A DNA stretch of 20,533 nucleotides from the IMG/VR virus record IMGVR_UViG_3300038701_002140, positions 1-20,533 of that record; one strand, 5' to 3'. This DNA is from a virus. The notes under the pieces were generated by a model. The model was not told the origin of the DNA and did no database searches. It worked only from the letters and a program-made list of their open reading frames with translations. Positions 3,740-20,471 of this stretch are shown piece after piece. Position 1 is the first letter of the stretch; each line of letters begins with the position of its first letter. A program made the position numbers and the translations under genes.

Positions 3740-5160
3740 GCGATTAACCCCTGCTCACCGAACAACTCCAACTGTCGCACGACACCCTCACCAGCCGCCG
3801 CGCTCTCGTCCACGATCCGCTGTTCTTCCGTCTCCCAATCACGCCCCAGGTCGCCCGCCAGCGTTTCCCGGCTGACCAGCCCCAGACCGTGCTCAACCTG
3901 CGCCGCCTGAAGTTCCTCGTTGCGGTTCAGCGGTAGCGGATCGTCCCACGTCGCCAGTACCGACGCCTCAAAGTCCATCATCGCCAGCGCCCGCCGCATC
4001 GCCTCCTCAAACACTGCCCCTAGCCGTCCCTGGACCGCGTCGCACAAGTCCAGCATCGACTTATACAGCGTCCGCAGTCCAAAGTTCGTCAACTGACCAA
4101 CCTTGTCATGCACACTCAGCGGATCAACCACCCGGCCCGCAGCAAACGTCGCCGCCCGCAGCCGCCGCTGGTACTCCAACGAACTCGCCAGGTCGCTATT
4201 CATCTCCACGTTGTACACCTGCGCCGGAGCGTCCCCCGTCCCCCGAATCTCAATCAACTCGTCAGCGCCCGTCGTCGGTTCTTCCAACGTCGCGTTCACA
4301 ATCACCGTCTTAGGATGCGCGTGATACCGCAGAATCTTCCCGATATTGCTCATCGTGAAGTTCAGCGCATCATTCAGGTGATCCACCCCATCCACGAACG
4401 AACGGCCATAGTAGGAGTGCGGCTTCCGTAGCGCCTTGCCATCCACAATCGGCGCGAACTCCCACGGCCACAGGTCCATAGCCGTTGGCTTCCACTGGGC
4501 ATCCTTCACGCTCGTATCCTTCACCCATTCGATGATCGCCCACCCTTCAGTCGGCAGATCGCCCAGCCACGACAACACCGCAAATCCCTCGCCCTCAGTC
4601 GGCAACAGGTCCGCCGGAACAATGTCTTGTCGCTTCTGATACTTTCCCGCCGCCCAGGTCAACTGATACCACAGCGCCCGCTTCTTCGACCCGAACCGTT
4701 CCATATCCCAGAACACGGTCACATGACGCGGATCCAACAACGCCATCGTCGGTGGATTCTCTGCGCTTAACGGCTCGTCGTTCTCCGGCTCCACCAACCG
4801 CACGAACACATGTCCCGTCGTCAACGCGCTCTCTACCAGGTCGCCCGTCAGTTCCTCAAATGCGGATTCATCCCGCACCGCGTCCAGCGCGCTAGAAACG
4901 TTGTTATCGCCAGCATCCCCGGCGACGGCCACCGACGGCATTCCGACAAAATCCGCCACCTCGTCAATCATCTGACCCACGAGGTTCACCGTCACGTTGT
5001 CGTCACGCTGCCCCGGATACGTCTTGAGCGTCTGCGGATGACGGCCCTCACGCCAATCCCACCACGAATCAATCGCCTTGATTCGGGTCTGGCGTTCCGT
5101 GTCCGCCTGCGCCTGTAATGTGTCGTCCGTCGGATCATAAACCCGTAGTGTTCCTGGCAT
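3736..5160 (-). CDS. Portal protein (SPP1 gp6-like)
   Basis: The portal is the dodecameric ring at one capsid vertex through which the terminase drives DNA. At 474 residues the protein is in the usual range. Recognisable portal features are the N-terminal helical segment with RKAIDSWWDW-like aromatic residues, the wing sheet region (VFVRLVEPENDEP, MALLDPRHVTVFWD), the clip/stem segment after LNDALNFTMSNIGKILRY, and a C-terminal helical crown (QRIVDESAAAGEGVVRQLE). It lies directly after the large terminase gene (stop at 5162, start at 5160) and before the MuF gene, the standard order. The start is the ATG at 5160, preceded by GGGGGA. Oddly, residues 463-467 near the C-terminus read QLELF, which resembles a bacterial sliding-clamp-binding motif. 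This may be chance. Confidence 0.87.
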   Translation of the reverse strand: MPGTLRVYDPTDDTLQAQADTERQTRIKAIDSWWDWREGRHPQTLKTYPGQRDDNVTVNLVGQMIDEVADFVGMPSVAVAGDAGDNNVSSALDAVRDESAFEELTGDLVESALTTGHVFVRLVEPENDEPLSAENPPTMALLDPRHVTVFWDMERFGSKKRALWYQLTWAAGKYQKRQDIVPADLLPTEGEGFAVLSWLGDLPTEGWAIIEWVKDTSVKDAQWKPTAMDLWPWEFAPIVDGKALRKPHSYYGRSFVDGVDHLNDALNFTMSNIGKILRYHAHPKTVIVNATLEEPTTGADELIEIRGTGDAPAQVYNVEMNSDLASSLEYQRRLRAATFAAGRVVDPLSVHDKVGQLTNFGLRTLYKSMLDLCDAVQGRLGAVFEEAMRRALAMMDFEASVLATWDDPLPLNRNEELQAAQVEHGLGLVSRETLAGDLGRDWETEEQRIVDESAAAGEGVVRQLELFGEQGLIA

Positions 5161-8988: not shown

Positions 8989-10158
8989 CTAACCGAAACT
9001 CACAAATGCCCCCGCATCCGTCGCCGCATAGTCCGGCGGCTCCCCGATGTAGTTCAACGTTACCGCCGCGTCCTTATGCCGCAAAATCTTCTGAATCACA
9101 TTCACCAGCGCCCCCTCCCGATGCAACAGCGCCGCCAGCGTCCGCCGAGCGTCATGCGCGCTGAACGCCACATCACACACCGCCTCGACCCGCCGCGTCA
9201 TCACCGCCCCGATTGATCCCGGCGTCATCCCCCGCGTGGGGTCGAACCGATAATCACCTACCGCCTTCCGATTCCCCCCATGCCGCAACGACTGCCATAC
9301 CGGAACATCCCCCGCAATCCGTCGCGGATCATCATCGGCCATCCCCTCATTATACGCCGCCACCCAATCCATAATCCGCCGCCGCGCCGCGTCCGGCAGC
9401 GTCACCGGGTCCGTGTTACTCCGCTTGCCCAGCGTTTCGACCACCCACACATCCCCCTCTTGCCGGATGCTGTTCAGCGTAATCTGCGCCAACTCCGCCC
9501 GCCGTAACCCGGTATAGAACGCCACACTCAGCAACGCATAATCGCGAATCCCGTCCAGCGTCCCCAGGTCCAACGAGCGCAGCACCGCGTTCACCTGCGC
9601 CCCCGTCAACCGCGTACCTTCCCGCCACAACGGAGCCAGATTGCTCGTCGTCTCACTGGACGGCCCCTTCACCGCCAGCGCCGCCCGGAACTCGTCCTTC
9701 AGCATCGTAATCAACATCATATCCCCGCCATTCCCCGGCATCGGCGTCTGCCCGCTCAACCCGCGCAGGAAATGCCGCAGGGGAGCCAGATACTTCGCGT
9801 TCACCGTCGATGCCGCCAGATTCCGTTCACCGTACAAATGCGCAATGAACGCCTTCACCGTCGCCCGGCTGGGCATCCGAAACCACTGCCCGCGCATCAG
9901 CACCAACTCACGCCCCACCTCCGCCCCGCACCACTGGAGGAAGTACGCCAGCCCATCCCGGTACGCCCGTTCCGTGTGCTTACTCTTGCGCCGCTGCCCC
10001 GGCAACGCCCCGACGTGCGCCAACACCTCATCCACCGCCGCCTGTGCATCGAAATACGTCAACCAGTGTTCTCCCAGCGCATCCGGGTCATACGTCGCCA
10101 CATTGCCCGCTACCCGGTCATCGTATACAATCACATCTGAGGTCGTTTCGTTTAACAT
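8989..10158 (-). CDS. Tyrosine recombinase 1 (XerC/D- or integrase-like)
   Basis: A 389-residue tyrosine recombinase with the full catalytic set: R219 in YTGLRRAEL, K245 in LGKRSNT, H335/R338 in SAHDARR, H361 in LRHKD and nucleophile Y370 in TLNYIG. The N-terminal 160 residues hold the SAM-like core-binding domain (HTERAYRDGLAYFLQW, then STVNAKYLAPLRHFL). The start ATG at 10158 follows AAAGGTG at eight bases. No tRNA-like or other obvious attachment sequence adjoins this gene, unlike the second recombinase. It could be the integrase, but it could equally be a resolvase for multimers of a circular form, comparable in role to Cre of phage P1. The recombinase family is certain; the job is not. 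Confidence 0.9.
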   Translation of the reverse strand: MLNETTSDVIVYDDRVAGNVATYDPDALGEHWLTYFDAQAAVDEVLAHVGALPGQRRKSKHTERAYRDGLAYFLQWCGAEVGRELVLMRGQWFRMPSRATVKAFIAHLYGERNLAASTVNAKYLAPLRHFLRGLSGQTPMPGNGGDMMLITMLKDEFRAALAVKGPSSETTSNLAPLWREGTRLTGAQVNAVLRSLDLGTLDGIRDYALLSVAFYTGLRRAELAQITLNSIRQEGDVWVVETLGKRSNTDPVTLPDAARRRIMDWVAAYNEGMADDDPRRIAGDVPVWQSLRHGGNRKAVGDYRFDPTRGMTPGSIGAVMTRRVEAVCDVAFSAHDARRTLAALLHREGALVNVIQKILRHKDAAVTLNYIGEPPDYAATDAGAFVSFG

Positions 10159-10199: not shown

Positions 10200-10243
10200 C
10201 ACCCCACCAGCAAGCCCCGACCAAGAAGCCGCTGAGTGGGGTG
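10200..10243. repeat. Long inverted repeat with ACCCCAC/GTGGGGT arms
   Basis: CACCCCACCAGC pairs with GCTG(A)GTGGGGTG, a 12-bp stem with one bulged A around a 19-base loop, followed on the plus strand by TTTTCG. It lies between the clamp-motif gene and recombinase 1. On the minus strand the T-run comes nine bases after the stem, so it is at best a weak terminator in the direction of transcription. The 7-bp arms recur in three other hairpins between 10.8 and 12.5 kb. Confidence 0.5.
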
Positions 10244-10257
10244 TTTTCGTTATAGAC

Positions 10258-10488
10258 CTAAAACAGTGTGTTGATGTGCGCCTCACGCGCCTCACGCTCG
10301 CGGGCCTCGTCCTCCGTCTCGTCCGGGTACGCCAGCACCAGGTCAAACAACCTGTCGCTGGGGCAGTCGGCTTTCGCCACACCACCACCGAACAAATCCC
10401 CACCCGCGAACATATCCAACTGCCGCGCCTTCACCCGCTTCGGGCGAACCGTCTTGTGATTGTCGTCAAACATACTCAACTGCATCAT
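10258..10488 (-). CDS. Small protein with two sliding-clamp-binding motifs
   Basis: A 76-residue protein with two close matches to the bacterial beta-clamp-binding pentapeptide QL[S/D]LF: QLSMF at residues 3-7 and QLDMF at 23-27. The internal clamp motif of E. coli DNA polymerase III alpha is QADMF, so Met at the fourth place is accepted. The motifs are joined by a basic linker (KTVRPKRVKA). The rest is acidic and helical (ETEDEAREREAREAHINTLF), with no enzyme motif. Inference: it binds the host DnaN ring, perhaps two subunits at once, to inhibit, recruit or redirect replication. The ATG at 10488 has GAGAGG eight bases upstream; the second codon is also ATG. It is transcribed divergently from the XRE regulator from an overlapping promoter, so its expression is probably linked to the lysis/lysogeny decision. 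Family unknown. Confidence 0.7.
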   Translation of the reverse strand: MMQLSMFDDNHKTVRPKRVKARQLDMFAGGDLFGGGVAKADCPSDRLFDLVLAYPDETEDEAREREAREAHINTLF

Positions 10489-10506
10489 GGTGATAACCTC
10501 TCTATC

Positions 10507-10553
10507 TCAAGTTCTTGATGCAATTGTAACGCAATTACTTGACGGATGCAAGT
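10507..10553. promoter_or_regulatory. Probable operator: two CAAG/CTTG inverted repeats
   Basis: TCAAG-TT-CTTGA at 10507-10518 and ACTTG-N7-CAAGT at 10537-10553 share the same half-site. They lie over and next to both promoters of the divergent region, as expected for binding sites of the adjacent XRE-type regulator. The different spacers (2 and 7 bp) make a single mode of binding uncertain. Confidence 0.45.
10523..10551 (-). promoter_or_regulatory. Leftward sigma70-type promoter
   Basis: Minus strand TTGCAT (10551-10546), 17-bp spacer, TACAAT (10528-10523). It would start near 10516 and transcribe the clamp-motif gene and possibly recombinase 1. Its -35 and -10 flank the -35 of the rightward promoter, so the two cannot be fully occupied together. 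Confidence 0.6.
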
Positions 10554-10567
10554 ATTTGATGTACATA
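10539..10567 (+). promoter_or_regulatory. Rightward sigma70-type promoter
   Basis: TTGACG (10539-10544), 17-bp spacer, TACATA (10562-10567). RNA would start near 10574, which supports 10597, not the earlier in-frame ATG at 10546, as the start of the regulator gene. Confidence 0.6.
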
Positions 10568-10596: not shown

Positions 10597-10869
10597 ATGA
10601 AGGAAAAACGATTTGTAATCAGGCTTCACACCGCGCACGATGGTTCCCTGTCACCGTATGCTGTCGCCCAGAAACTTAACATCTCTGAGAACACAGCCCG
10701 GAAATACATGGAAGAGGAGATTGTCTCTAAGACGCTCCGCCTTGCCGTCATTCACATGGCGGAATTGTTCGGGGTGGATTGGAAAGACAGTCACATCGTT
10801 AAAGTGATCGAAGTTGAGGAACCCGACGAATCGGGGCAAAAGAAAACCCCACTGGCGGCGACGGCATAG
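10597..10869 (+). CDS. XRE/Cro-CI-type transcriptional regulator
   Basis: A 90-residue protein. Residues 18-60 match a Cro/CI-type five-helix DNA-binding domain, with the helix-turn-helix at about 21-38 (YAVAQKLNISENTARKYM), followed by LRLAVIHMAELFGVDW, the usual 'ria.alGv' closing helix. A short acidic/hydrophilic tail follows, too short for a CI-type peptidase domain, so no RecA-triggered self-cleavage is expected. The ATG at 10597 follows AGGAAG and lies downstream of the predicted transcription start; the ATG at 10546 would fall inside the promoter. It is divergent from the clamp-motif gene and probably represses that promoter and its own through the CAAG/CTTG sites. It could alternatively act as an excisionase-like factor, but the fold favours a repressor or Cro role. 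Confidence 0.72.
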   Translation: MKEKRFVIRLHTAHDGSLSPYAVAQKLNISENTARKYMEEEIVSKTLRLAVIHMAELFGVDWKDSHIVKVIEVEEPDESGQKKTPLAATA

Positions 10870-10888
10870 CAACCATCGTCAGTGGGGT
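10846..10888. repeat. Inverted repeat over the end of the regulator gene
   Basis: ACCCCACTG (10846-10854) pairs perfectly with CAGTGGGGT (10880-10888); the regulator's stop codon (10867-10869) is in the loop, which itself can pair partly (GACGG with CC..CGTC). No T-run follows on the plus strand, so it is not a classical terminator. Same arm sequence as the hairpins at 10200, 12221 and 12435. Confidence 0.5.
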
Positions 10889-11085
10889 GGGGTGACACGG
10901 TTAGGTGCCGTGCCGCTCTACGTAGTGGCAGCTTAACAAATGAATGATGGGAACTCCGCAAGCTAACGCGCCGTTCCCCACCAGATGCATCACTGCGATT
11001 CCACCCCCGACAGATTGCAGTGTGCGCTCTGTCGTTTTCCCTACCTTTGCCGTTTACAAAGTGGGGTCAGGATGGAGTTTTTATG

Positions 11086-11121
11086 TCGGGGCGGCGGGAT
11101 TTGAACCCACGACCTCACCGT
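11086..11121 (-). other. attP: Probable phage attachment site (attP) matching the 3' end of a tRNA-Pro gene
   Basis: On the minus strand this segment has the 3' part of a tRNA: anticodon-stem strand CGGTG, variable loop AGGTC, T arm GTGGG-TTCAAAT-CCCGC and acceptor strand CGCCCCG with discriminator A. The matching 5' half (acceptor CGGGGCG, D arm, anticodon) is absent, so this is not a tRNA gene. A 3'-terminal G72 (so C1:G72) with A73 points to tRNA-Pro. Tyrosine integrases commonly use such 3' tRNA segments as the shared core, so that integration restores the host tRNA. It lies 39 bp beyond the 3' end of recombinase 2. An AGGAT-ACGA-ATCCT inverted repeat at 11130-11143 and a GTGGGGTCAGG box at 11061-11071 flank it as possible integrase sites. 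Confidence 0.72.
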
Positions 11122-11159: not shown

Positions 11160-12086
11160 TCACCCGCTGAATCGACGCAATTTGGCGTCATCTGACAACG
11201 GAATCGCCGCCGCACGACTGGCCGCTTCGACCCGCTCATCATCTTCGTGATAGTAGTAGTCAAGCGTCGTCATGTAGTTCGTGTGGCCCAGCACCCGCGC
11301 TGCCGTGCGCGGATCAACCCCGGACCGCTGTAACTGGTCGCCCTTGCGGTGACGTAGTGAGTGTGGCCCCCATGAGCCAATCCCGGCAGCAATGCACGAG
11401 CGCCGGAAATACTGCGCGAGCGCGGATGCCGTCATCGGTTCACCGTCCCGGCTAAACACCGTACTCCCAACGGCCCCCCGGCGAGACAACCAATCGCGCA
11501 ATGCCCGCGCCGTCACGTCACCGAAATACACGGTATACGACACCTCGCCCTTTTCTTCGACCGTTGCCCGTCGCTTACCCAGGTCAAGCCGGTCTATCGT
11601 TAACCCGGCTGCCCCACCCCGGCGACAACCCGTGTCCGCCAGGAACGTCACCAGCGCATAACGGCGCGGCTCCCAGCGTGCATACGTCAACAGCGTGTCG
11701 AGCTTGGCATCCGGCATGATCTTGTCCGGGTCCACCCCCCGCGCCAGCTTTTTCGACGGCACGGCAAACGGCGACTGGTTGACGTAGCCATGTTTGGCGC
11801 ACCAGTTCCAGAACGTTCGTAAGGTTTTCTTGTGCTTCTCAATCGTGGCCGGGGCATACGGCGGATCACGCTGCACTAGCGCGAGATTCACATACTCCAC
11901 CAAGTCGGGCGGCTCGAAATAGTCTACCCGTTCCCCATTTTCAACAATCTGTAGCGGGCGCTCCGGCCCCAACCAGGCGACCATCGGGCGCAGGTCTTGC
12001 GCGTAGGTTGTAGCGGTCGTCTTGCGGTATCCCGCGAGAAATGATTCAACCGCCATCCCCAATGTGCGATTTACATTGCGTGGCAT
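11160..12086 (-). CDS. int: Tyrosine integrase 2, paired with the tRNA-type attachment site
   Basis: A 308-residue phage integrase. Catalytic residues are R155 (DTGCRRGG), K179 (EEKGEV), H242/R245 (PHSLRH), H268 (LGHTN) and nucleophile Y277 (TTLDYYYH; the neighbouring Y278/Y279 are less well placed). The N-terminal SAM-like core-binding domain spans about 10-115 (TTATTYAQDLRPMVAWLG, TIEKHKKTLRTFWNWC). In the usual TGLR box Leu is replaced by Cys, a tolerated variation. The ATG at 12086 follows AGGAG at eight bases. The probable attP lies directly downstream, the classical int-attP layout, so this enzyme is the likelier integrase of the two. It reads away from the rightward operon. No separate excisionase gene is evident. 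Confidence 0.92.
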   Translation of the reverse strand: MPRNVNRTLGMAVESFLAGYRKTTATTYAQDLRPMVAWLGPERPLQIVENGERVDYFEPPDLVEYVNLALVQRDPPYAPATIEKHKKTLRTFWNWCAKHGYVNQSPFAVPSKKLARGVDPDKIMPDAKLDTLLTYARWEPRRYALVTFLADTGCRRGGAAGLTIDRLDLGKRRATVEEKGEVSYTVYFGDVTARALRDWLSRRGAVGSTVFSRDGEPMTASALAQYFRRSCIAAGIGSWGPHSLRHRKGDQLQRSGVDPRTAARVLGHTNYMTTLDYYYHEDDERVEAASRAAAIPLSDDAKLRRFSG

Positions 12087-12644: not shown

Positions 12645-12938
12645 ATGCACCATATCCAGGTCCTCGCGGCGCAAGACGCCTACCGCGAGCGCCAGCGACT
12701 TGCACAACTGGACAAGAACTACCAACGCCTCAGCAAGGTATACAACGTCGCATTAGACGATCTTGATGAGGTCGAGGATCGCAACGACGACCTAGTAGAC
12801 GAAAACAACGAGCTTGGCCGCGAGGTTCGCAGGTTGAAGCAGGAACTGGCACGCTTGGGTTTTAACACCAACCGCCCCATCAGCGTGATGCAAGAACTCG
12901 AAATTGAACACGCGGTTCGCACCGCACTAGCCAGTTAG
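12645..12938 (+). CDS. Small coiled-coil protein, first gene of the rightward operon
   Basis: A 97-residue acidic protein, beginning MHHIQVLAAQDAYRERQRLA. Residues 15-70 are a continuous heptad-type coiled coil (LDKNYQRLSKVYNVALDDLD, then DLVDENNELGREVRRLKQEL), followed by a short helical tail. No catalytic motif. The ATG at 12645 has GAAAGG eight bases upstream and there are 10 bp to the next gene. It opens the early operon. Oligomerising adaptor or regulatory proteins are common in such positions, but no function can be assigned. Confidence 0.65.
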   Translation: MHHIQVLAAQDAYRERQRLAQLDKNYQRLSKVYNVALDDLDEVEDRNDDLVDENNELGREVRRLKQELARLGFNTNRPISVMQELEIEHAVRTALAS

Positions 12939-12948
12939 GAGAATTACC

Positions 12949-13443
12949 ATGCGTATCACCAACCGACTCGCACTCAACCGCGAGATCTCCGTCACCACCC
13001 GCGAACGCGCCTACCGCGAAACGTGGGGCCGCCCCCGTTGGGCAGACGGCTCCCCCATCCGCACGGACCGCCCCGGCAACCCCATCCCGGCAGGCCCCCG
13101 CGTTCCCGCCCTGCCCCCGGTGGATGAAGCCCTCGCCCGCCTAGAGCGCGCCGCCGCCAACGCCACGCCGAATCGCACCGACGCACACGGCGGCCCGTCT
13201 GTCGATCAGATCATCGCCGCCCGCCGTCGGGGGGTTCGCACCATCGCCACCGGCAGCGCCTGGCGCGGTGGCGAGATCACCATCACCCCGACAGACCCCG
13301 ACCTCTACCGCCACCCCCGCCCCGGCACCCACGAGGCATCAGCGGGCGAAATCTTGCAGATGCCCAGCGCCATGCAACGCCTACACGACGCCATACCGGG
13401 CATCCAGCAACGCGCCTTTGATCGCGCCATGACCGGGAGCTAA
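12949..13443 (+). CDS. Unknown basic protein
   Basis: A 164-residue protein (starts MRITNRLALNREISVTTRER) rich in Arg and Pro, with a disordered-looking middle (RTDRPGNPIPAGPRVPALPP), a possible helix (DEALARLERAAANA) and a C-terminal helical part (LQMPSAMQRLHDAIPGIQQR). AGGAG lies seven bases before the ATG. The stop TAA at 13441-13443 is two bases before the next start, so the genes are tightly coupled. I recognise no family. Arg richness would suit nucleic-acid binding. Confidence 0.6.
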   Translation: MRITNRLALNREISVTTRERAYRETWGRPRWADGSPIRTDRPGNPIPAGPRVPALPPVDEALARLERAAANATPNRTDAHGGPSVDQIIAARRRGVRTIATGSAWRGGEITITPTDPDLYRHPRPGTHEASAGEILQMPSAMQRLHDAIPGIQQRAFDRAMTGS

Positions 13444-13445
13444 CC

Positions 13446-14042
13446 ATGACCGACCACCCAACCACCACCGACGAGCGCCTCCCCATCATCGAGGCCGACA
13501 GCACCGAACGCACCGCGCTTTCGCGCCAGCGCATCAGTGGTGAGATGACCCAACTTGTCACCCTCCACGAGGCCCTCTACGCCGCCCTCGAAGCGACCCA
13601 CCCGGAGGCCGCGCAGCAGATCGCCCAGGCCAACCGCCACGCGGTCAACATCGAAGCCTCTGCCCAGAGCCTCGCCCAGCAAGCGATCTACAACAACAGC
13701 ATCGCCCGTGATCTGCTCACTCTCGCCCAGCAATTCGCCCAGGAGCGCGACACCATCGTTGAGGCCATCCGCACAGGCGATACGTTAGAGGAAGCCGGGG
13801 GCGTCGGCGACCACATCTCCACGCTTATCCAAGATACGGAAGCCTGGGCATCCGAGGTCGAATTTGACGCCGCCTGGCGGATGCTCCAATACGCTGGGAT
13901 CGCCAGCCGGGGCGAGCTGATCGACTGGCTCTTCAACGGTGATGACCACGCCTACGACGCCGACCAATACGAGGCGATGGCAGAACAAACCAGCGACCTC
14001 ATGCAGTACTTCCTAGACAAAGCAGCCGCAGGAGGCGACTAA
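13446..14042 (+). CDS. Unknown acidic helical protein
   Basis: A 198-residue, strongly acidic, almost all-helical protein (for example LHEALYAALEATHPEAAQQI and IARDLLTLAQQFAQERDTIV). Two Trp-containing helices lie near the C-terminus (FDAAWRMLQYAGIASRGEL, IDWLFNGDDHAYDADQYEAM). There are no cysteines and no catalytic motif. GGGAG lies six bases before the ATG. Its charge would fit a DNA mimic or a partner of a basic protein such as its upstream neighbour, but this is only a possibility. Confidence 0.6.
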   Translation: MTDHPTTTDERLPIIEADSTERTALSRQRISGEMTQLVTLHEALYAALEATHPEAAQQIAQANRHAVNIEASAQSLAQQAIYNNSIARDLLTLAQQFAQERDTIVEAIRTGDTLEEAGGVGDHISTLIQDTEAWASEVEFDAAWRMLQYAGIASRGELIDWLFNGDDHAYDADQYEAMAEQTSDLMQYFLDKAAAGGD

Positions 14043-14047
14043 CCACC

Positions 14048-14731
14048 ATGCAAACCAACCTTTTCCCCGGCTTCATCATTCTGACTGACGTACTCAGCCA
14101 GGATATGAGCGAAATCTCAAGCCGCACCGCGCACTGGTTCGCTGTCCGCCCGGAGCACATCATCGCCATTGAGCCGACGAGCAACGAGGACCGCCTCACG
14201 ATCTACATTGCCCGCCACTCGAACAACGATACCCGCATCGTTCTACGCGATGAGCTACTTGCCAAGCTCAACCCGGCACAACCCACCCGTCAACTCATCA
14301 TCGCGCAGATCGAACGCACCAGCACCCGCAGCGGCTCGCGCATGTGGCGGATGAAAACCGCACGCGGCGAACAGGTCAACGTGTTCGGCCCGGACAGCAG
14401 CAACAGCAACTTTGAACTTCTCACGCCAGACTGGGCGGATTACCTGGAAAAAGCCGCCGATGCCTACCTTGCGCCTCACGCCGTTGTAACCGTCACTCAA
14501 GACGGCCAGTGGAACAAGCTCGTCAGCATTGACAGCCCCGCCCCGCCCCTCACCCCGCCGGACGACGAGCGCCCCATCCTGGACCGCATCTTGTCCGGCA
14601 TCGACAAAGCCCAGCAACCCGGCGAAACCGTCGCTCAACTACGGGACCGCCTAGGCAGCCTGGACACGGACGACGACGGACCGCCGCCGATCAACACCGA
14701 CGACCTGCCGGAACCGCCGCCAGCCACCTAG
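14048..14731 (+). CDS. Probable OB-fold protein, SSB-like candidate
   Basis: A 227-residue protein. Residues 82-163 follow an OB-fold plan: strand 1 QLIIAQIERT, strand 2 RMWRMKTA, strand 3 QVNVFG, helix DWADYLEKAADAYL, strand 4 HAVVTVTQDGQ and strand 5 WNKLVSID. The N-terminal 75 residues form another alpha/beta unit (AVRPEHIIAIEPTSNEDRLT). The tail is Pro-rich and acidic (DTDDDGPPPINTDDL onwards), as in single-strand-binding proteins, although the canonical SSB C-terminal DDDIPF motif is absent. Inference: binding of single-stranded DNA during phage replication. The start is 12 bases after GGAGG. No standard SSB gene is seen elsewhere in the window, which leaves the role open for it. Confidence 0.55.
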   Translation: MQTNLFPGFIILTDVLSQDMSEISSRTAHWFAVRPEHIIAIEPTSNEDRLTIYIARHSNNDTRIVLRDELLAKLNPAQPTRQLIIAQIERTSTRSGSRMWRMKTARGEQVNVFGPDSSNSNFELLTPDWADYLEKAADAYLAPHAVVTVTQDGQWNKLVSIDSPAPPLTPPDDERPILDRILSGIDKAQQPGETVAQLRDRLGSLDTDDDGPPPINTDDLPEPPPAT

Positions 14732-14770
14732 AAACCAACTTATCACCACCTATTAGGAGGAACCACCACC

Positions 14771-15403
14771 ATGACGAAGAAGATCGACATCCGTGACGGC
14801 GAGCGCATCATCCCCGGCACGACGCTCACCGTGCCGACCACCCCACCGTTCGGGGGCGGCAGTGTCCGGCAAATCTTGCTGGACAGCTACGGCACGGACC
14901 AGCGCGACGAGTTGGACATGCTCTCCGATGAGGACCTGGCACACGCCGTCATTGACCGTCTGAAAGCTGAGATTGACGCCCGCGACGAGGCCCGCGCCAA
15001 AGCCAAGACCCTCCACAACGCCATTGAAGAAACCCGCGAGCAGTTGTTTATCTGCCTGCCGGAGGCCCAGCACGACGAGTGGACGCGCTTCTTTGAGCCA
15101 CACCATCTGGCAGGAATGGCCGTCGCCACCCTGGACCACATCGCTGAGTCCAACGCCCAAGTCGTCGAGCAGGCACAAGCGGACGCAGCCAAAGCCCGCA
15201 AGTACATCGAAGCACGCGAGAAGGCGTGGGCCGCGTTCACGCAGCGCCTGAACCTCATCCTCGACATGATTAACCTCGAAGTCGAATCCGGCATGACCCA
15301 CGCCCAGCGCAACGGCGCAAATCAGTTGTGGCGCGGCCTGCTGGATATGGCGCTTCGCCAATGGAAGGTGCGCCAGCGAGGCGAGGACGACCTACTGTTC
15401 TAA
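14771..15403 (+). CDS. Unknown coiled-coil protein
   Basis: A 210-residue helical protein preceded by GGAGG ten bases before the ATG. It has an N-terminal extended part (RIIPGTTLTVPTTPPFGGG), then long charged helices (about 52-95, 120-165), one of them beginning LKAEIDARDEARAKAKTLHN, and a C-terminal helix ending in the acidic hydrophobic tail GEDDLLF. No known domain. The genes from 12645 to 15403 share codon use and strong ribosome sites and probably form one transcription unit. A hairpin after this gene may end or attenuate it. Confidence 0.62.
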   Translation: MTKKIDIRDGERIIPGTTLTVPTTPPFGGGSVRQILLDSYGTDQRDELDMLSDEDLAHAVIDRLKAEIDARDEARAKAKTLHNAIEETREQLFICLPEAQHDEWTRFFEPHHLAGMAVATLDHIAESNAQVVEQAQADAAKARKYIEAREKAWAAFTQRLNLILDMINLEVESGMTHAQRNGANQLWRGLLDMALRQWKVRQRGEDDLLF

Positions 15404-15411
15404 ACGCAAAA

Positions 15412-15441
15412 CGGGGCGGCCACCATTACGAGACCGCCCCG
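15412..15441. repeat. GC-rich inverted repeat before parA
   Basis: CGGGGCGG (15412-15419) pairs with CCGCCCCG (15434-15441) around a 14-base loop. No T-run follows, so it is not a typical intrinsic terminator. It lies in the 113-bp gap before parA and could be a partition (parS-like) site, an operator for ParA/ParB or a transcript-processing hairpin. The rest of the gap holds only the AAGGAG ribosome site of parA. Confidence 0.4.
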
Positions 15442-15516
15442 CCCGAACACCGGAGGGAGCCTCGCGGAGTTCACCACCATCATAAACCATACAGCTATTA
15501 AGGAGCATCACCCAAA

Positions 15517-16356
15517 ATGAAAACCATCACCATCATCAACAACAAAGGCGGCATCGGCAAGACCACCCTCGCCGTCCACATCGGCGGCGGCCTCGCCACT
15601 CTCGGCGCTCGTGTCGTCATCATCGACGCCGACCCCCAGGCCCACGCCGGGGCCAGTCTCGCCGCCCCCGCCGGGCGCAGTCTGTTTGACCTGCTCGTCA
15701 ACGACGCGCCCTGGTCGCAGACCATCACCCCCATCCCGCCCGCCTCATACGCCCCAGAGGGCCAGAATCGCGGCTCCCTGGGCGTCGTCACCAACGACCT
15801 CGAAGGCTACGGCATCCCGCAGGCCATCCGCCAGCAACACGGCGACTACATCAGCGGCGCGACCATCATTTCGGATAAGTTGGAAGAGTTGGAGCATAGC
15901 GGCGCGGTAGACGTGGTGATTTTCGACCTCTCCCCTACCCCGTCCGACTTTAACCAGTGGATTGTCACCAACTCCAACGCCGTCATCCTGCCCACGCTCT
16001 GTCAAATGCTCGACCTCAACGGCACCGACGCCAGCATGTCCGGCCTCCAACGCTACCAGCAGCACCGCGCCAAACATGGCGACCCGCTGGACATCATCGG
16101 TATCGTACCCAACATGGTCCGCGACGGCGTGAAAGAACACGAGTACGGCTTAGAGCGCCTGCGCGAGGACTACGGCGACATGGTATTGCGGCCCATCCGC
16201 AACAGTATCGCCGTCGCCGAGGCATCCGCCGAAGCCATGACCATGTTCGCTTACAACAACCGCCACAAGGTCGCGGGCCAACTGTGGCATCTCGTGGACA
16301 TCGTGAAGGCGTGGCTGATCGACACTGCCGCCCAGCAGCGCCGGGAGGGTCGTTAA
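15517..16356 (+). CDS. parA: ParA-type partition ATPase
   Basis: ParA ATPases move or position plasmids, chromosomes or large complexes with a ParB-like partner. The 279-residue protein has the deviant Walker A KGGIGKTT with the signature lysine (about residues 10-17), Walker A' VVIIDADPQ (about 33-41) and a Walker B-like VVIFDLSPT (about 132-140). There is no N-terminal helix-turn-helix, so it is of the small (type Ib or Soj-like) class, which does not autoregulate itself. AGGAG lies 11 bases before the ATG. The ParB-like gene starts two bases after its stop. The presence of this gene in a phage genome points to plasmid-like maintenance. An orphan ParA with another cargo is possible. Confidence 0.9.
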   Translation: MKTITIINNKGGIGKTTLAVHIGGGLATLGARVVIIDADPQAHAGASLAAPAGRSLFDLLVNDAPWSQTITPIPPASYAPEGQNRGSLGVVTNDLEGYGIPQAIRQQHGDYISGATIISDKLEELEHSGAVDVVIFDLSPTPSDFNQWIVTNSNAVILPTLCQMLDLNGTDASMSGLQRYQQHRAKHGDPLDIIGIVPNMVRDGVKEHEYGLERLREDYGDMVLRPIRNSIAVAEASAEAMTMFAYNNRHKVAGQLWHLVDIVKAWLIDTAAQQRREGR

Positions 16357-16358
16357 TC

Positions 16359-18590
16359 ATGGCCCGCAAAAGCAACGGCTACAGCGACAAGCGCCAGCGC
16401 CCCGCGTCAAGCCTCATGTACAGTGACGGCCCCATTGACGACAGTCCGGCCCCCGTCCAGACCAGCATCAAGTCCTACGCGACCCCCCTGGACGCGATCC
16501 ACCCGGACCTGGAGCAGCCCCGCAAGTTTGCCCCCGTCATCATCATGGCGGGGTGGGACGGCTCCCCGGCGGGTATCCCGGACCTGCTCAAGCGTGCCCG
16601 CGTGGAGGCCACCCAGCGCCTTGCCTACCCCCTGGACCCCGTGAAGCTCATCCGTCAGCCGGAGGCCAACGGCATCCGCATTGATGATGACGACGTGCGC
16701 CAGGACACCCTAGCGCGTGATCCCGTCGTCCGCTGGTATCTCGGCATTATCCGCCTCGCCGGGTCCATTGCAGACCCGGACGTTGGCCTGATTAACGCTA
16801 TCACCATCACCAAGCAGGAGGATGACCGCCTGCGTGTCATCACCGGACATCGTCGCCTCATGGCCTTCTGGTTGCTTCGCACGGTATTCGGTGAGGATTA
16901 CGCCGCGATTCCCGCCCAGACCATCCCCGTTCATAACGTCTGGCAACAGGCGGAGGAGAACAACAACCGCGACGACCACAACGACATTGAGGACGCCCGC
17001 ACGTTTGCCCTGCTGATGATGGACCTCTATCGCGCCCAGGGTGCGGAGTTTCTCCCCTACCACGAGATGTTGACCCCGGACGGCTCAGACCGCCCCTACT
17101 ACGCCCAGGTTGCCGACGGCAACAAATGGCGCGTCCCACGCGGCGAGGGCGAGCGCATTGCCCGTGCAATGGCCGCCGCGTCTACCGCACGCCTGCGCCA
17201 CTACCGCGCCCTGCTGCGGATTGACGACACCCTTTGGCGGCTGGCGGACGCCTACGATTGGGCAGAATACTTCATCCGTGACGCCGCCGCCCTCGATGAC
17301 GAGTGGTGGCAGCAGCATGAGGACCTGCCGCAGGCCCAGCTTGCCGCCCGTGTTGAGGCCGCCGTGAAGGACATGCGTGAGGCCGATACCGTTACGGCAG
17401 TAACGGTATCCGACGCGCCCCAGAGCGACCCCACCCCCGCCCCAGATGGGGATAACCCGCAATATACCCACACATTCCAGCGCGGCGATCGCGTCCGCAA
17501 CGAACGCGACGAACTCGGCACCATCACGCACCCCCTGGGCAACGACAAGCGCGTCGGCGTGATCTTCGACAGCATGATTCCCGCCCGTCGTCCCCCGGAG
17601 GAACTCACCCTCGCCCCGGACGAGCCGCCCCCACCAATGGGCTATCGCATGAAGATGAAAACCGGGCGCATCGACGACGGCGCAGAGCATCGCGGCATCA
17701 TGGTTGCCCAGAAACTTATCAACGCGGGCTTGTGGGACAACATCGGCGAACTATGGTTTAACGACGTGTACGCCATCCACGACACGATCATGGGCAGTGT
17801 CAGCGACCTTACGGTTAATGATCTCATCCTAAAGCGGGACGCAAGCGGCCTCACCGTCAGCCTACCCCAGCAACGCCCCACCGTTACCAAACTCGGCTGG
17901 ACCGTCGGTGATCGCTGCACCGTCGTCTCACACGGACAGGGCACGATCACCCGCGTCGTGGCCCATAACGCCGTCAGTGTCGAACTCGACAACGGCAACG
18001 TCCTCTCCCACGTCAACGAGGCGAACCTCCGCGACCCCGCCCCCACGCCGGATAAGGACGTTTCTAGCGCGTCCGGCAGCGCCACTGACATCCTGCGTAA
18101 TCGCGTCCGGGTCGGCACCGTCGTCACGCTAACCAACGGCAACCGCGTCAAGATCGTCAAGCGCCTGTTCAACGGCAGCACCTTCAAAGCCGTTTATGCG
18201 GACGGTAACGAGGTCCTGATTGCCGTCCAGGACATCGCCGCCATCGACCACGACCAGTCTTGGCCGGAGCCACCCGCCCAGGGCGACGACACCACTGAGA
18301 TGACCGACGACGAGTTTGAGGCTCAGTCTCAACCGGATGACGAACCCGCTGTCGCCCTCACGGTCGCAGACCGTGCCGTCGTTGTGCGCCTCCATGCCTT
18401 CGCCGTCGCCACCAAAAACCGTGACATGGCTCACACGTTACAGCAGTGGCTCATGGGGCGGGTGTCAGATCGCACCTATGGCGAGGACCTTGAGGCCTTC
18501 GCCGCGCTGCGCTTTGCCGTCATGGACGACCTGAAAAACCTCAACACACTCATCAACCTAGCGCACGGCCACCAGGACCCCGACGCATGA
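16359..18590 (+). CDS. Large ParB-like protein with three SH3-like modules
   Basis: The 743-residue protein starts at the ATG at 16359, ten bases after GGAGG; the frame is open further upstream only as a shadow of parA. ParB N-domain features are visible: HPDLEQPRKF (48-57, box I), RVITGHRRLMAF (159-170, box II) and AEENNNRDDHNDIEDA (198-213). The box I-box II spacing is far larger than usual, about 100 residues. A helical region follows. Then three segments look like small SH3/KOW-like barrels: about 372-417 (FQRGDRVRNERDELGTIT), 514-558 (WTVGDRCTVVSHGQGTIT) and 585-630 (VGTVVTLTNGNRVKIVKRL). The C-terminus is helical. No clear ParB helix-turn-helix is seen. With parA it probably forms a partition pair; other ParB-fold nuclease or CTPase functions are possible. 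Confidence 0.75.
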   Translation: MARKSNGYSDKRQRPASSLMYSDGPIDDSPAPVQTSIKSYATPLDAIHPDLEQPRKFAPVIIMAGWDGSPAGIPDLLKRARVEATQRLAYPLDPVKLIRQPEANGIRIDDDDVRQDTLARDPVVRWYLGIIRLAGSIADPDVGLINAITITKQEDDRLRVITGHRRLMAFWLLRTVFGEDYAAIPAQTIPVHNVWQQAEENNNRDDHNDIEDARTFALLMMDLYRAQGAEFLPYHEMLTPDGSDRPYYAQVADGNKWRVPRGEGERIARAMAAASTARLRHYRALLRIDDTLWRLADAYDWAEYFIRDAAALDDEWWQQHEDLPQAQLAARVEAAVKDMREADTVTAVTVSDAPQSDPTPAPDGDNPQYTHTFQRGDRVRNERDELGTITHPLGNDKRVGVIFDSMIPARRPPEELTLAPDEPPPPMGYRMKMKTGRIDDGAEHRGIMVAQKLINAGLWDNIGELWFNDVYAIHDTIMGSVSDLTVNDLILKRDASGLTVSLPQQRPTVTKLGWTVGDRCTVVSHGQGTITRVVAHNAVSVELDNGNVLSHVNEANLRDPAPTPDKDVSSASGSATDILRNRVRVGTVVTLTNGNRVKIVKRLFNGSTFKAVYADGNEVLIAVQDIAAIDHDQSWPEPPAQGDDTTEMTDDEFEAQSQPDDEPAVALTVADRAVVVRLHAFAVATKNRDMAHTLQQWLMGRVSDRTYGEDLEAFAALRFAVMDDLKNLNTLINLAHGHQDPDA

Positions 18591-18658
18591 GCGCCCAATC
18601 CTGGCCCCGTGTGCCCGTCCGTCTCAACGTCCACCGCCTGGAGGAGGTCCAACCCGCC

Positions 18659-18889
18659 ATGCCACACAACGACACCGACGCCCACCCGCTGCCCGTTGGC
18701 TGGCGCTCGATTGGTAGCCACACCGTCACCATCGCCCGGCTGGGCCGTCGCTACAACTACAAGCTGTACATCGCCGACGAGCGCGGGCGCTACACCCGCA
18801 CGCACACCAGTCGCTTTAACTACAAATCCGAAGAGGCCGCCATCAGCGCGGCCCGCACCAAATTGAACACCCTGACGAACACGGAGTAA
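18659..18889 (+). CDS. Unknown small basic protein
   Basis: The frame opens at an ATG at 18587 overlapping the ParB-like stop (ATGA), but the ATG at 18659 has GGAGGAGGT ten bases upstream and is preferred, giving 76 residues. The product (MPHNDTDAHPLPVGWRS) has predicted strands (HTVTIARLGRRYNYKLYIAD) followed by an Arg/Tyr-rich segment and a C-terminal helix (SEEAAISAARTKLNTL). A sheet followed by a helix is the outline of AP2-like or small DNA-binding domains, but this is a guess. The gene is four bases from the next start. Family unknown. Confidence 0.55.
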   Translation: MPHNDTDAHPLPVGWRSIGSHTVTIARLGRRYNYKLYIADERGRYTRTHTSRFNYKSEEAAISAARTKLNTLTNTE

Positions 18890-18893
18890 CCCG

Positions 18894-19955
18894 ATGGTAC
18901 TCAATCACCAACAGCCACACACCACCCCCGCACCGGGGGTGGACCGTCACATCACCAACCGCACGCACCAACCCGACCACGACGGCATCCAGCGCCTTGT
19001 GCGCTCGTCGGGGCGCAGTGGTTACGCCATTGGCTGGCTGTACACCTGTTTGCACCGTCACCTCACCGACGGCGGCAAGGACTGGCTCTCGCATAACGAA
19101 GTTGGCGACCTGGCAGGCGGGATGGGGGAAACCGCCGTGAAAAAACACACGAAGGCACTCGTTGACGCCGGGTTGATCCTGCGCGAACAGATCGGCAGCA
19201 CCGTTTACGCCTACCGCCTACCGCCACGCCAGCACATCACCGAGGTTACACGGTTCCCGCAATCCGACAGCCAGCAGGTGAAAAGTATCTTTCGCGTGGT
19301 GAAAACCGCCCCCCGACAGGCGCAAAGCGCCACCAATCTAGAAGAAGAAAAAGAAGATATTTCTATTGTTGAGGATAGGGGAAAGTCTGTTACAGAACCC
19401 ACCACCCCGGACAACGAACAAACCCGCATCGCCCGGCGCTATGTCCGTGATGAGGAGGTGATTGCCATTGCCGCAGAATTGCCACCGAAAACGGTGAAGT
19501 ACATTGCACAAAAGGCGGATGAGGCCAAAACATCACGCGGGGGGTACTTTGCCCAGGCTGTCCGTAACGCTCCAGTGGAGGCTCCCCGCACCAAACCCAA
19601 GCCCCCGGCCAAGAGCCGCATCCCGGTTCCAGGTCGCGACGATGTGGCAGGTGTTTCCATTTCGGAAAAGACTGTCCCACCCTCCGGCCCCGTCATCGCC
19701 CCGGAACCTACCGCGCCCCCGCCCCCGCCGGACACCGACGACGCCACCCGCACCGTGCGGACCTACCTCGCGCAAATGCTACGTAGCGAGGCGCACCTGC
19801 TGAACCGCGCAGCCATCACGCATGACGGCAACCATTGGACGGTCACCGGACCACGCGGCCTACAGCACCACCGGCGCGGCCTACGCGCCTATATCGCCCA
19901 CGCGCTCTGCGTGGACCCCGACGCGATCACCGTCGCGGTGGAGGTCGTAGCATGA
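18894..19955 (+). CDS. Winged-helix protein, putative replication initiator
   Basis: A 353-residue protein with a winged helix at about residues 45-110 (YAIGWLYTCLHRHLTDGGKD, LSHNEVGDLAGGMGETAVKK, HTKALVDAGLILREQIGS, then the wing STVYAYRLP). This is the layout of phage and plasmid replication initiators and replisome organisers. An acidic stretch (148-164) follows, then a helical middle (about 196-226, KTVKYIAQKADEAKTSRGGY), a Pro-rich linker and a C-terminal alpha/beta part (VRTYLAQMLRSEAHLLNRAA). No Walker or relaxase motif. The initiator role is inferred from fold, position in the early operon and a local A/T-rich tract within the gene. A transcriptional regulator is the alternative. The last bases overlap the next gene as ATGA. 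Confidence 0.55.
   Translation: MVLNHQQPHTTPAPGVDRHITNRTHQPDHDGIQRLVRSSGRSGYAIGWLYTCLHRHLTDGGKDWLSHNEVGDLAGGMGETAVKKHTKALVDAGLILREQIGSTVYAYRLPPRQHITEVTRFPQSDSQQVKSIFRVVKTAPRQAQSATNLEEEKEDISIVEDRGKSVTEPTTPDNEQTRIARRYVRDEEVIAIAAELPPKTVKYIAQKADEAKTSRGGYFAQAVRNAPVEAPRTKPKPPAKSRIPVPGRDDVAGVSISEKTVPPSGPVIAPEPTAPPPPPDTDDATRTVRTYLAQMLRSEAHLLNRAAITHDGNHWTVTGPRGLQHHRRGLRAYIAHALCVDPDAITVAVEVVA
19333..19395. other. A/T-rich tract inside the putative rep gene (candidate origin unwinding region)
   Basis: In a strongly GC-rich setting, the segment around 19335-19385 (AATCTAGAAGAAGAAAAAGA, then GATATTTCTATTG) is visibly A/T-rich. GTGAAAA occurs upstream three times (about 19136, 19277 and 19299), too irregular to call iterons. 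As in lambda, where the origin lies inside the O gene, it could be the site where initiation opens DNA. This is a weak candidate. Confidence 0.25.
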
Positions 19956-20233
19956 CTGTCACCCTCACCCCCGAATCGGCGTGTGTCCTGCGTCAACTAC
20001 TCGCCGCCCACCCGCGCCCGGTCCCGCACGGCAAGGTCAACAGCCGCGCCGTGCATCGGTTGGTGCGGACGGGTGCGCTCGTCCGGTATGCGCGTATCAG
20101 CTACGTGCAAAAAACGACGATCCGCCGTCTTGACCCGCACTACGAACTCACACCGCTGGGCGAAGCCGTAGCCCTGGCCCTGCCGGACGTGCTACCGCCG
20201 CACCCGTTCACCCTTGACCAACTGGCAAGCTAG
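19952..20233 (+). CDS. Small winged-helix-like protein
   Basis: A 93-residue basic protein starting at the ATG at 19952, which overlaps the previous stop (ATGA) and follows GGAGGT at six bases; the frame above it is a shadow. The sequence (MTVTLTPESACVLRQLLAAH, KVNSRAVHRLVRTGALVRYA, then YELTPLGEAVALALPD) has the helix-helix-wing outline with the closing LTPLGEAVA seen in MarR- and PadR-like winged helices. It is probably a small DNA-binding regulator or accessory replication protein. There are no cysteines. The specific role is unknown. Confidence 0.6.
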   Translation: MTVTLTPESACVLRQLLAAHPRPVPHGKVNSRAVHRLVRTGALVRYARISYVQKTTIRRLDPHYELTPLGEAVALALPDVLPPHPFTLDQLAS

Positions 20234-20246
20234 AAAGGTTTTTATC

Positions 20247-20471
20247 ATGACCAATACCACCCCCACCCCCATCACCAAACGCGCTGACGCCATCCGGCCC
20301 GGCGACCTGATCCGCTACGGGTCCCGCGTGTGGCGTGTGGACCGCGTGGACCCGCCCGCTCATTTTCGCTGGTACTTACACCTCGTCGTGACGGACACCG
20401 AAACCGGGCACGGCGAGAGTCTGTGCTACGGCGAGGCCGAGCACGTCACCCTCGCGGAGGTGCGCTCATGA
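20247..20471 (+). CDS. Small SH3-like protein
   Basis: A 74-residue protein with the ATG at 20247 eight bases after AGAAAGG. The core IRPGDLIRYGSRVWRVDRVD with the following YLHLVVTDTETGHGE and HVTLAEVRS strands has the look of a five-stranded SH3/KOW-like barrel. It resembles the modules in the ParB-like protein (GDRVR and GDLIR segments), so the two may share origin or partners. The end overlaps the next start codon (ATGA). Function unknown. Confidence 0.58.
   Translation: MTNTTPTPITKRADAIRPGDLIRYGSRVWRVDRVDPPAHFRWYLHLVVTDTETGHGESLCYGEAEHVTLAEVRS

Follow-up and report, generated by a model that had tools for sequence, protein, structure and literature searches.

What might a phage protein of 76 residues do that carries two peptides of the type used to dock on the bacterial sliding clamp DnaN, and what does its position opposite a small HTH-like gene suggest about when it is made? 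The gene in question lies in IMG/VR virus record IMGVR_UViG_3300038701_002140, the entire 20,533 bases of which form the window analyzed here. The minus-strand genes of the window include those for scaffold, head morphogenesis, portal, and the large and small terminase subunits, together with an endonuclease VII-like protein and the first integrase, while the plus-strand genes, at 12645–20471, include ParA and an O-like initiator.

In agreement with the original prediction, the open reading frame at 10258–10488 encodes 76 residues (MMQLSMFDDNHKTVRPKRVKARQLDMFAGGDLFGGGVAKADCPSDRLFDLVLAYPDETEDEAREREAREAHINTLF); it is located on the minus strand, starts with an ATG at 10488, runs to 10258, and shows a normal codon score. 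Its codon log-likelihood of 0.48 per codon compares with 0.15–0.54 in the other genes of the window, and none of the five other frames across the gene exceeds 0.04 per codon, which is the score of a plus-strand frame over the same bases that is also open. Taken together, the codon score, ribosome-binding site, promoter-like site, and 3′ hairpin (Table 1) lead us to take the 76-aa gene as real. The hairpin is a probable terminator between this gene and the tyrosine recombinase gene that lies downstream on the same strand (8989–10158), and the 76-aa gene is probably transcribed alone. Strong hairpins with similar CCCCACT/GTGGGG arms end both of the divergent small genes, at 10200–10243 (−) and 10845–10888 (+).

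Table 1. Features of the 76-aa gene, its surroundings, and other sites in the window (coordinates are window positions)
Feature	Position	Strand	Basis or remark
Orphan 76-aa protein gene with two clamp-binding-type motifs	10258..10488	−	ORF call
Motif 1, QLSMF, residues 3–7, acidic DD next	10468..10482	−	Translation
Inter-motif linker DDNHKTVRPKRVKAR, 15 residues, net +4	10423..10467	−	Sequence
Motif 2, QLDMF, residues 23–27; same as DnaE clamp motif of two Chloroflexota genomes	10408..10422	−	
Predicted acidic C-terminal helix, residues 59–75	10264..10314	−	Model confidence about 72 in the helix, low outside it
Ribosome-binding site AGAGAGG, 8 nt from ATG	10497..10503	−	Sequence
Promoter-like TTGCAT-17-TACAAT	10523..10551	−	By eye; under scanner's threshold
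Strong hairpin just past stop codon; T-run about 10 nt beyond	10200..10243	−	Sequence
Inverted repeat CAATTACTTG-acggatg-CAAGTATTTG over both −35 boxes	10532..10558	.	Sequence
Divergent promoter-like TTGACG-17-TACATA, weak −10	10539..10567	+	Sequence; not in scanner's list
Divergent gene for small 90-aa protein, HTH-like	10597..10869	+	Sub-threshold matches only
39-bp segment identical to tRNA-Pro(CGG) 3′ part	11082..11120	−	Beside integrase 11160–12086
Portal C-terminal end QLELFGEQGLIA, clamp-type motif	3760..3774	−	Sequence

The two pentapeptides were claimed to occupy residues 3–7 (QLSMF) and 23–27 (QLDMF) and to match the clamp-binding consensus. Translation places them at exactly these positions, and both conform to QΦx[L/M][F/L], the motif as defined in a review from 2024 (PMC11139829). 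According to the same review, acidic residues are common around clamp motifs, and the E. coli clamp is bound less tightly when motif position 4 is methionine rather than leucine (PMC11139829). From the window's own composition, 0.07 occurrences of QLx[LMI]F are expected in all window proteins and 4e-7 motif pairs in one 76-aa protein. A comparison set of 209 loci of phage and bacterial DNA comprised 2,450 proxy genes, together 564,218 aa; Q[LIMVA]x[LM]F occurred once or more in 18 of these genes and in 1 of 842 small genes, and twice within 40 residues in none of the 2,450. Both sets of figures are uncorrected for the free choice of pattern in the original prediction, but the margin is wide. 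A pair of motifs in a protein this small goes far past what chance would give. The flanks of the two motifs are unlike and their codons differ at positions 3 and 5, which argues that the pair is not a simple recent duplication. As separate observations, a viral 78-aa ORF near a contig end (L331:7161-7394, +; MKQLSIFDDLSPHKLHRKNDPLTSREAA...) carries a single N-terminal clamp-type motif, and a viral contig has an open frame of 959 aa that contains QLDLFSQP twice, 22 residues apart (L220:3683-3763, −), so that large proteins also can carry paired clamp motifs.

The N-terminal third of the protein consists of the two motifs and their linker and is followed by a Gly-rich stretch and the predicted acidic helix. 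The single-sequence AlphaFold2 model gives pLDDT block means of 44–61 for residues 1–60, values that are compatible with disorder in this part of the chain. The linker had been described as basic, which holds for residues 8–22 (net +4) but does not extend to the protein as a whole, which is acidic, with a pI of 5.0 and a net charge of −6 in residues 43–76. The further claim that the protein has no enzyme domain is borne out, with none detectable in Pfam, PHROGs, NCBIfam, or PADLOC, and family and profile searches detected no DNA-binding domain or HTH in it.

QLELF at the end of the portal protein was considered as a third clamp motif and rejected, as related portals do not conserve it; it is probably a chance match, and its absence from related portals indicates that isolated matches arise by chance. 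The same might be argued for the 76-aa protein, whose pentapeptides could be coincidental or could bind something other than the clamp, with the protein serving as a small accessory to the downstream integrase or as a regulator together with the HTH-like protein. Such a role would suit an orphan protein encoded directly upstream of a tyrosine recombinase and in the same direction, a place where small directionality factors may be encoded. However, two consensus pentapeptides within 76 residues are not expected on this account, and both equal DnaE motifs found in the probable host phylum (see below). In addition, a strong hairpin separates the 76-aa gene from the integrase gene, and the protein, at pI 5.0, shows no HTH or basic DNA-binding profile and no family match. 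We consider a function away from the clamp to be improbable.

Because no DnaN-type gene was found in the 20,533-base record, which may be a fragment, any clamp target of the protein is probably that of the host. The tRNA-Pro(CGG) segment (Table 1) is the probable attP of the adjacent integrase, judging from its sequence and position, and searching the species-representative genome collection for the shared 29-base att core gave 109 stretches. Among the 80 matches listed of these 109, 27 are from Chloroflexota, with Planctomycetota and Elusimicrobiota next, and the four that are named among the five longest matches are all Chloroflexota. As the att segment is commonest in Chloroflexota among the matches listed, this phylum is the likely host. 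Two different tyrosine recombinases, at 8989–10158 (−) and 11160–12086 (−), are encoded in this single 20.5-kb record.

The DnaE proteins of two Chloroflexota genomes, G013, which has the longest att match, and G019, contain the internal motif VGQLDMFG; motif 2 of the phage protein is thus the DnaE motif of G013, letter for letter. QLSMF is the internal clamp motif of one other Chloroflexota DnaE, and further DnaE proteins of the phylum have QLLMF, QIQMF, QTTMF, QTSLF, or QVTMF, among others. This identity, though noticed after the fact and among many DnaE variants, is the best independent support for a clamp-directed function. Methionine at position 4, which weakens binding to the E. coli clamp, is common in Chloroflexota DnaE.

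Our preferred reading, to which we assign a probability of roughly 0.45, is that the 76-aa protein is a small, mostly disordered competitor for the pocket of the host clamp that copies the motif of the polymerase. Expressed from the promoter facing the HTH-like gene, the protein would dock on host DnaN via two motifs that mimic the host polymerase's own; with two tags joined by a flexible basic linker, it would occupy the clamp pockets more fully and would compete with the polymerase and other clamp users, such that host replication would be slowed or redirected once the protein is made. We infer the host, the clamp binding, the competition, and the timing alike. Competition for the clamp pocket is the simplest mechanism. 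The two tags could raise the apparent affinity by rebinding or could link two clamps, and it is doubtful, from length only, that a 15-residue spacing would let one molecule bridge both pockets of a single ring. The competitor reading is favored by the fit to the motif definition, a pair beyond chance, the DnaE identity, an att segment pointing to Chloroflexota, the lack of an enzyme or DNA-binding domain, and the precedent of known DnaN-targeting phage proteins and a DnaN-targeting toxin. Against it stand the absence of a homologue in any searched collection, the weaker binding of Met4 than of Leu in E. coli (PMC11139829), the indirect nature of the host assignment, and the low confidence of the structure model.

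The two-part anatomy of the protein, in which the motifs occupy the N-terminal third while the acidic helix stands apart at the C terminus, also suits the chief rival of this reading, in which the protein is a clamp adaptor: the N-terminal motifs would sit on loaded host clamps and the acidic C-terminal helix would recruit a partner, with the phage initiator, integrase, or RNA polymerase as candidates. The adaptor would then serve the phage's own replication or replication-coupled gene expression, as T4 gp33 does in principle, and a record with an O-like initiator and no DnaN of its own would be consistent with such a role. T4 gp33 and gp55 are phage proteins whose clamp motif, as in the 76-aa protein, is carried on a linker, and gp33 is a small phage protein linking the clamp to RNA polymerase (PMC7892883). 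However, gp33 and gp55 recognize gp45, the trimeric clamp encoded by the phage itself, through C-terminal LDFL motifs, whereas the 76-aa protein has two N-terminal QLxMF motifs and the DnaN-type gene that was sought is absent from its possibly fragmentary record. In addition, the helix prediction is weak. Although it is the strongest competitor of our preferred reading, we regard an adaptor as unlikely.

The original prediction further linked the protein to the lysogeny decision through a divergent promoter. The divergent layout is confirmed, with an HTH-like gene at 10597–10869 (+) opposite the 76-aa gene and an inverted repeat shared by the two. The repeat (10-bp arms with one mismatch, spacer 7) lies across both −35 boxes, an arrangement that is typical of a shared operator and that we describe as operator-like. 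Since it spans both promoters, synthesis of the 76-aa protein is probably coupled to the regulatory switch of the phage. The HTH assignment of the 90-aa neighbor is weak: its three-helix model is of low confidence, and a fold search with this model gave no significant match. We infer the lysogeny-switch label from gene order, the predicted promoters, and the shared operator-like repeat. A more ambitious proposal is that the protein, made of hardly more than two copied host-polymerase clamp motifs, is a dedicated bivalent clamp ligand at the phage switch that reads or sets the number of loaded clamps and so couples the replication state of the host to the lysogeny decision. This seems to us very improbable.

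The same gene pair might be read as a toxin module, with the 76-aa protein as a clamp-targeting toxin that the divergent HTH-like protein controls or neutralizes, on the principle of SocB/SocA or RipA. The genes of a toxin and its antitoxin usually point the same way, whereas these two genes diverge. Moreover, PADLOC and NCBIfam gave no creditable match to defense or toxin models, and no antitoxin-type neighbor is present among the matched families. A toxin is highly unlikely here, even though the clamp pocket is a target with precedent: SocB binds it via a usual clamp motif (PMC9690074), and mutations in it relieve the toxicity of RipA (PMC12795458).

Comparison with known clamp partners places the protein in none of the systems considered. 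Twort gp168 and phage G1 gp240, from staphylococcal phages, act against the host clamp and thereby halt host replication (PMC3594737), and the likeness would be that of phage proteins directed against DnaN. However, what gp168 obstructs is the clamp's DNA channel and not its peptide pocket (PMC11139829), whereas the motifs of the 76-aa protein point to the pocket, and tblastn of 50,697 phage records revealed no gp168-type sequence relation. SocB of Caulobacter and RipA of Streptococcus pneumoniae do act on the hydrophobic pocket of the clamp (PMC9690074; PMC12795458), but they belong to bacterial toxin–antitoxin systems with another gene layout, and neither the 76-aa protein nor its neighbor gave a PADLOC match or a relevant NCBIfam or Pfam match. 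DnaE shares identical pentapeptides, with QLDMF in two Chloroflexota genomes and QLSMF in one more, and E. coli alpha likewise has two clamp motifs (PMC11139829); DnaE, however, is a large polymerase, whereas the 76-aa protein comprises little beyond the motifs, the flanks of which are unrelated. Hda, which acts in RIDA, carries a clamp motif in a disordered N terminus (PMC11139829) but has an AAA+ domain, whereas the 76-aa protein has no Pfam family. By sequence and layout the protein belongs to none of these systems, and what it has in common with canonical clamp partners is the motif only.

The known clamp-attacking phage proteins are few, and the best studied hits the DNA channel and not the peptide pocket. 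The effect of several clamp motifs per partner is described as not understood in the 2024 review (PMC11139829). A natural two-motif protein of 76 residues would offer a very simple system in which to study this effect, as well as a starting point for clamp inhibitors directed at the pocket; should the protein fail to bind, the 76-aa gene would be a plain orphan.

Consistent with its orphan status, searches of Pfam, PHROGs, NCBIfam, PADLOC, and the PDB gave no relative of the 76-aa protein, and the single sub-threshold NCBIfam line is chance. Pattern scans confirmed by tblastn found no homologue in IMG/VR or GTDB species contigs, and among the 50,697 phage records tblastn at E up to 10 picked up a single match at chance level, to a fecal phage record that is unannotated. 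Plasmid records, 12 phage relatives picked by terminase, and 154 genomes from the order of the best att match likewise contained no homologue, nor did 400 Chloroflexota genomes, in which the best E value was 7e-4, in 1 of the 400, and the alignments lacked the motifs. An IMG/VR census with a broad two-motif DNA pattern was dominated, among the matches listed, by tandem repeats and antisense frames. A narrow pattern (Met, one codon starting with A, motif, 10–20 codons, motif), which misses other start contexts and codon choices, returned 39 stretches with 0 genuine counterparts. No small protein built of two clamp motifs was found described in the open-access papers searched. Terminase relatives of the phage exist; the stretches fetched from them hold no small two-motif ORF, and the same is true of the terminase-bearing stretches of Chloroflexota genomes that were examined (one only 6.5 kb). 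No IMG/VR relatives were found for the integrases at 8989–10158 and 11160–12086, the HTH-like protein, or ParA, which indicates that, packaging genes excepted, few relatives of this phage are represented in the collections. The ParA-like partition ATPase (15517–16356, +) is followed by a 743-aa protein without a Pfam match (16359–18590), and this module lies near the O-like initiator, a plasmid-like arrangement in a phage that also bears integrases.
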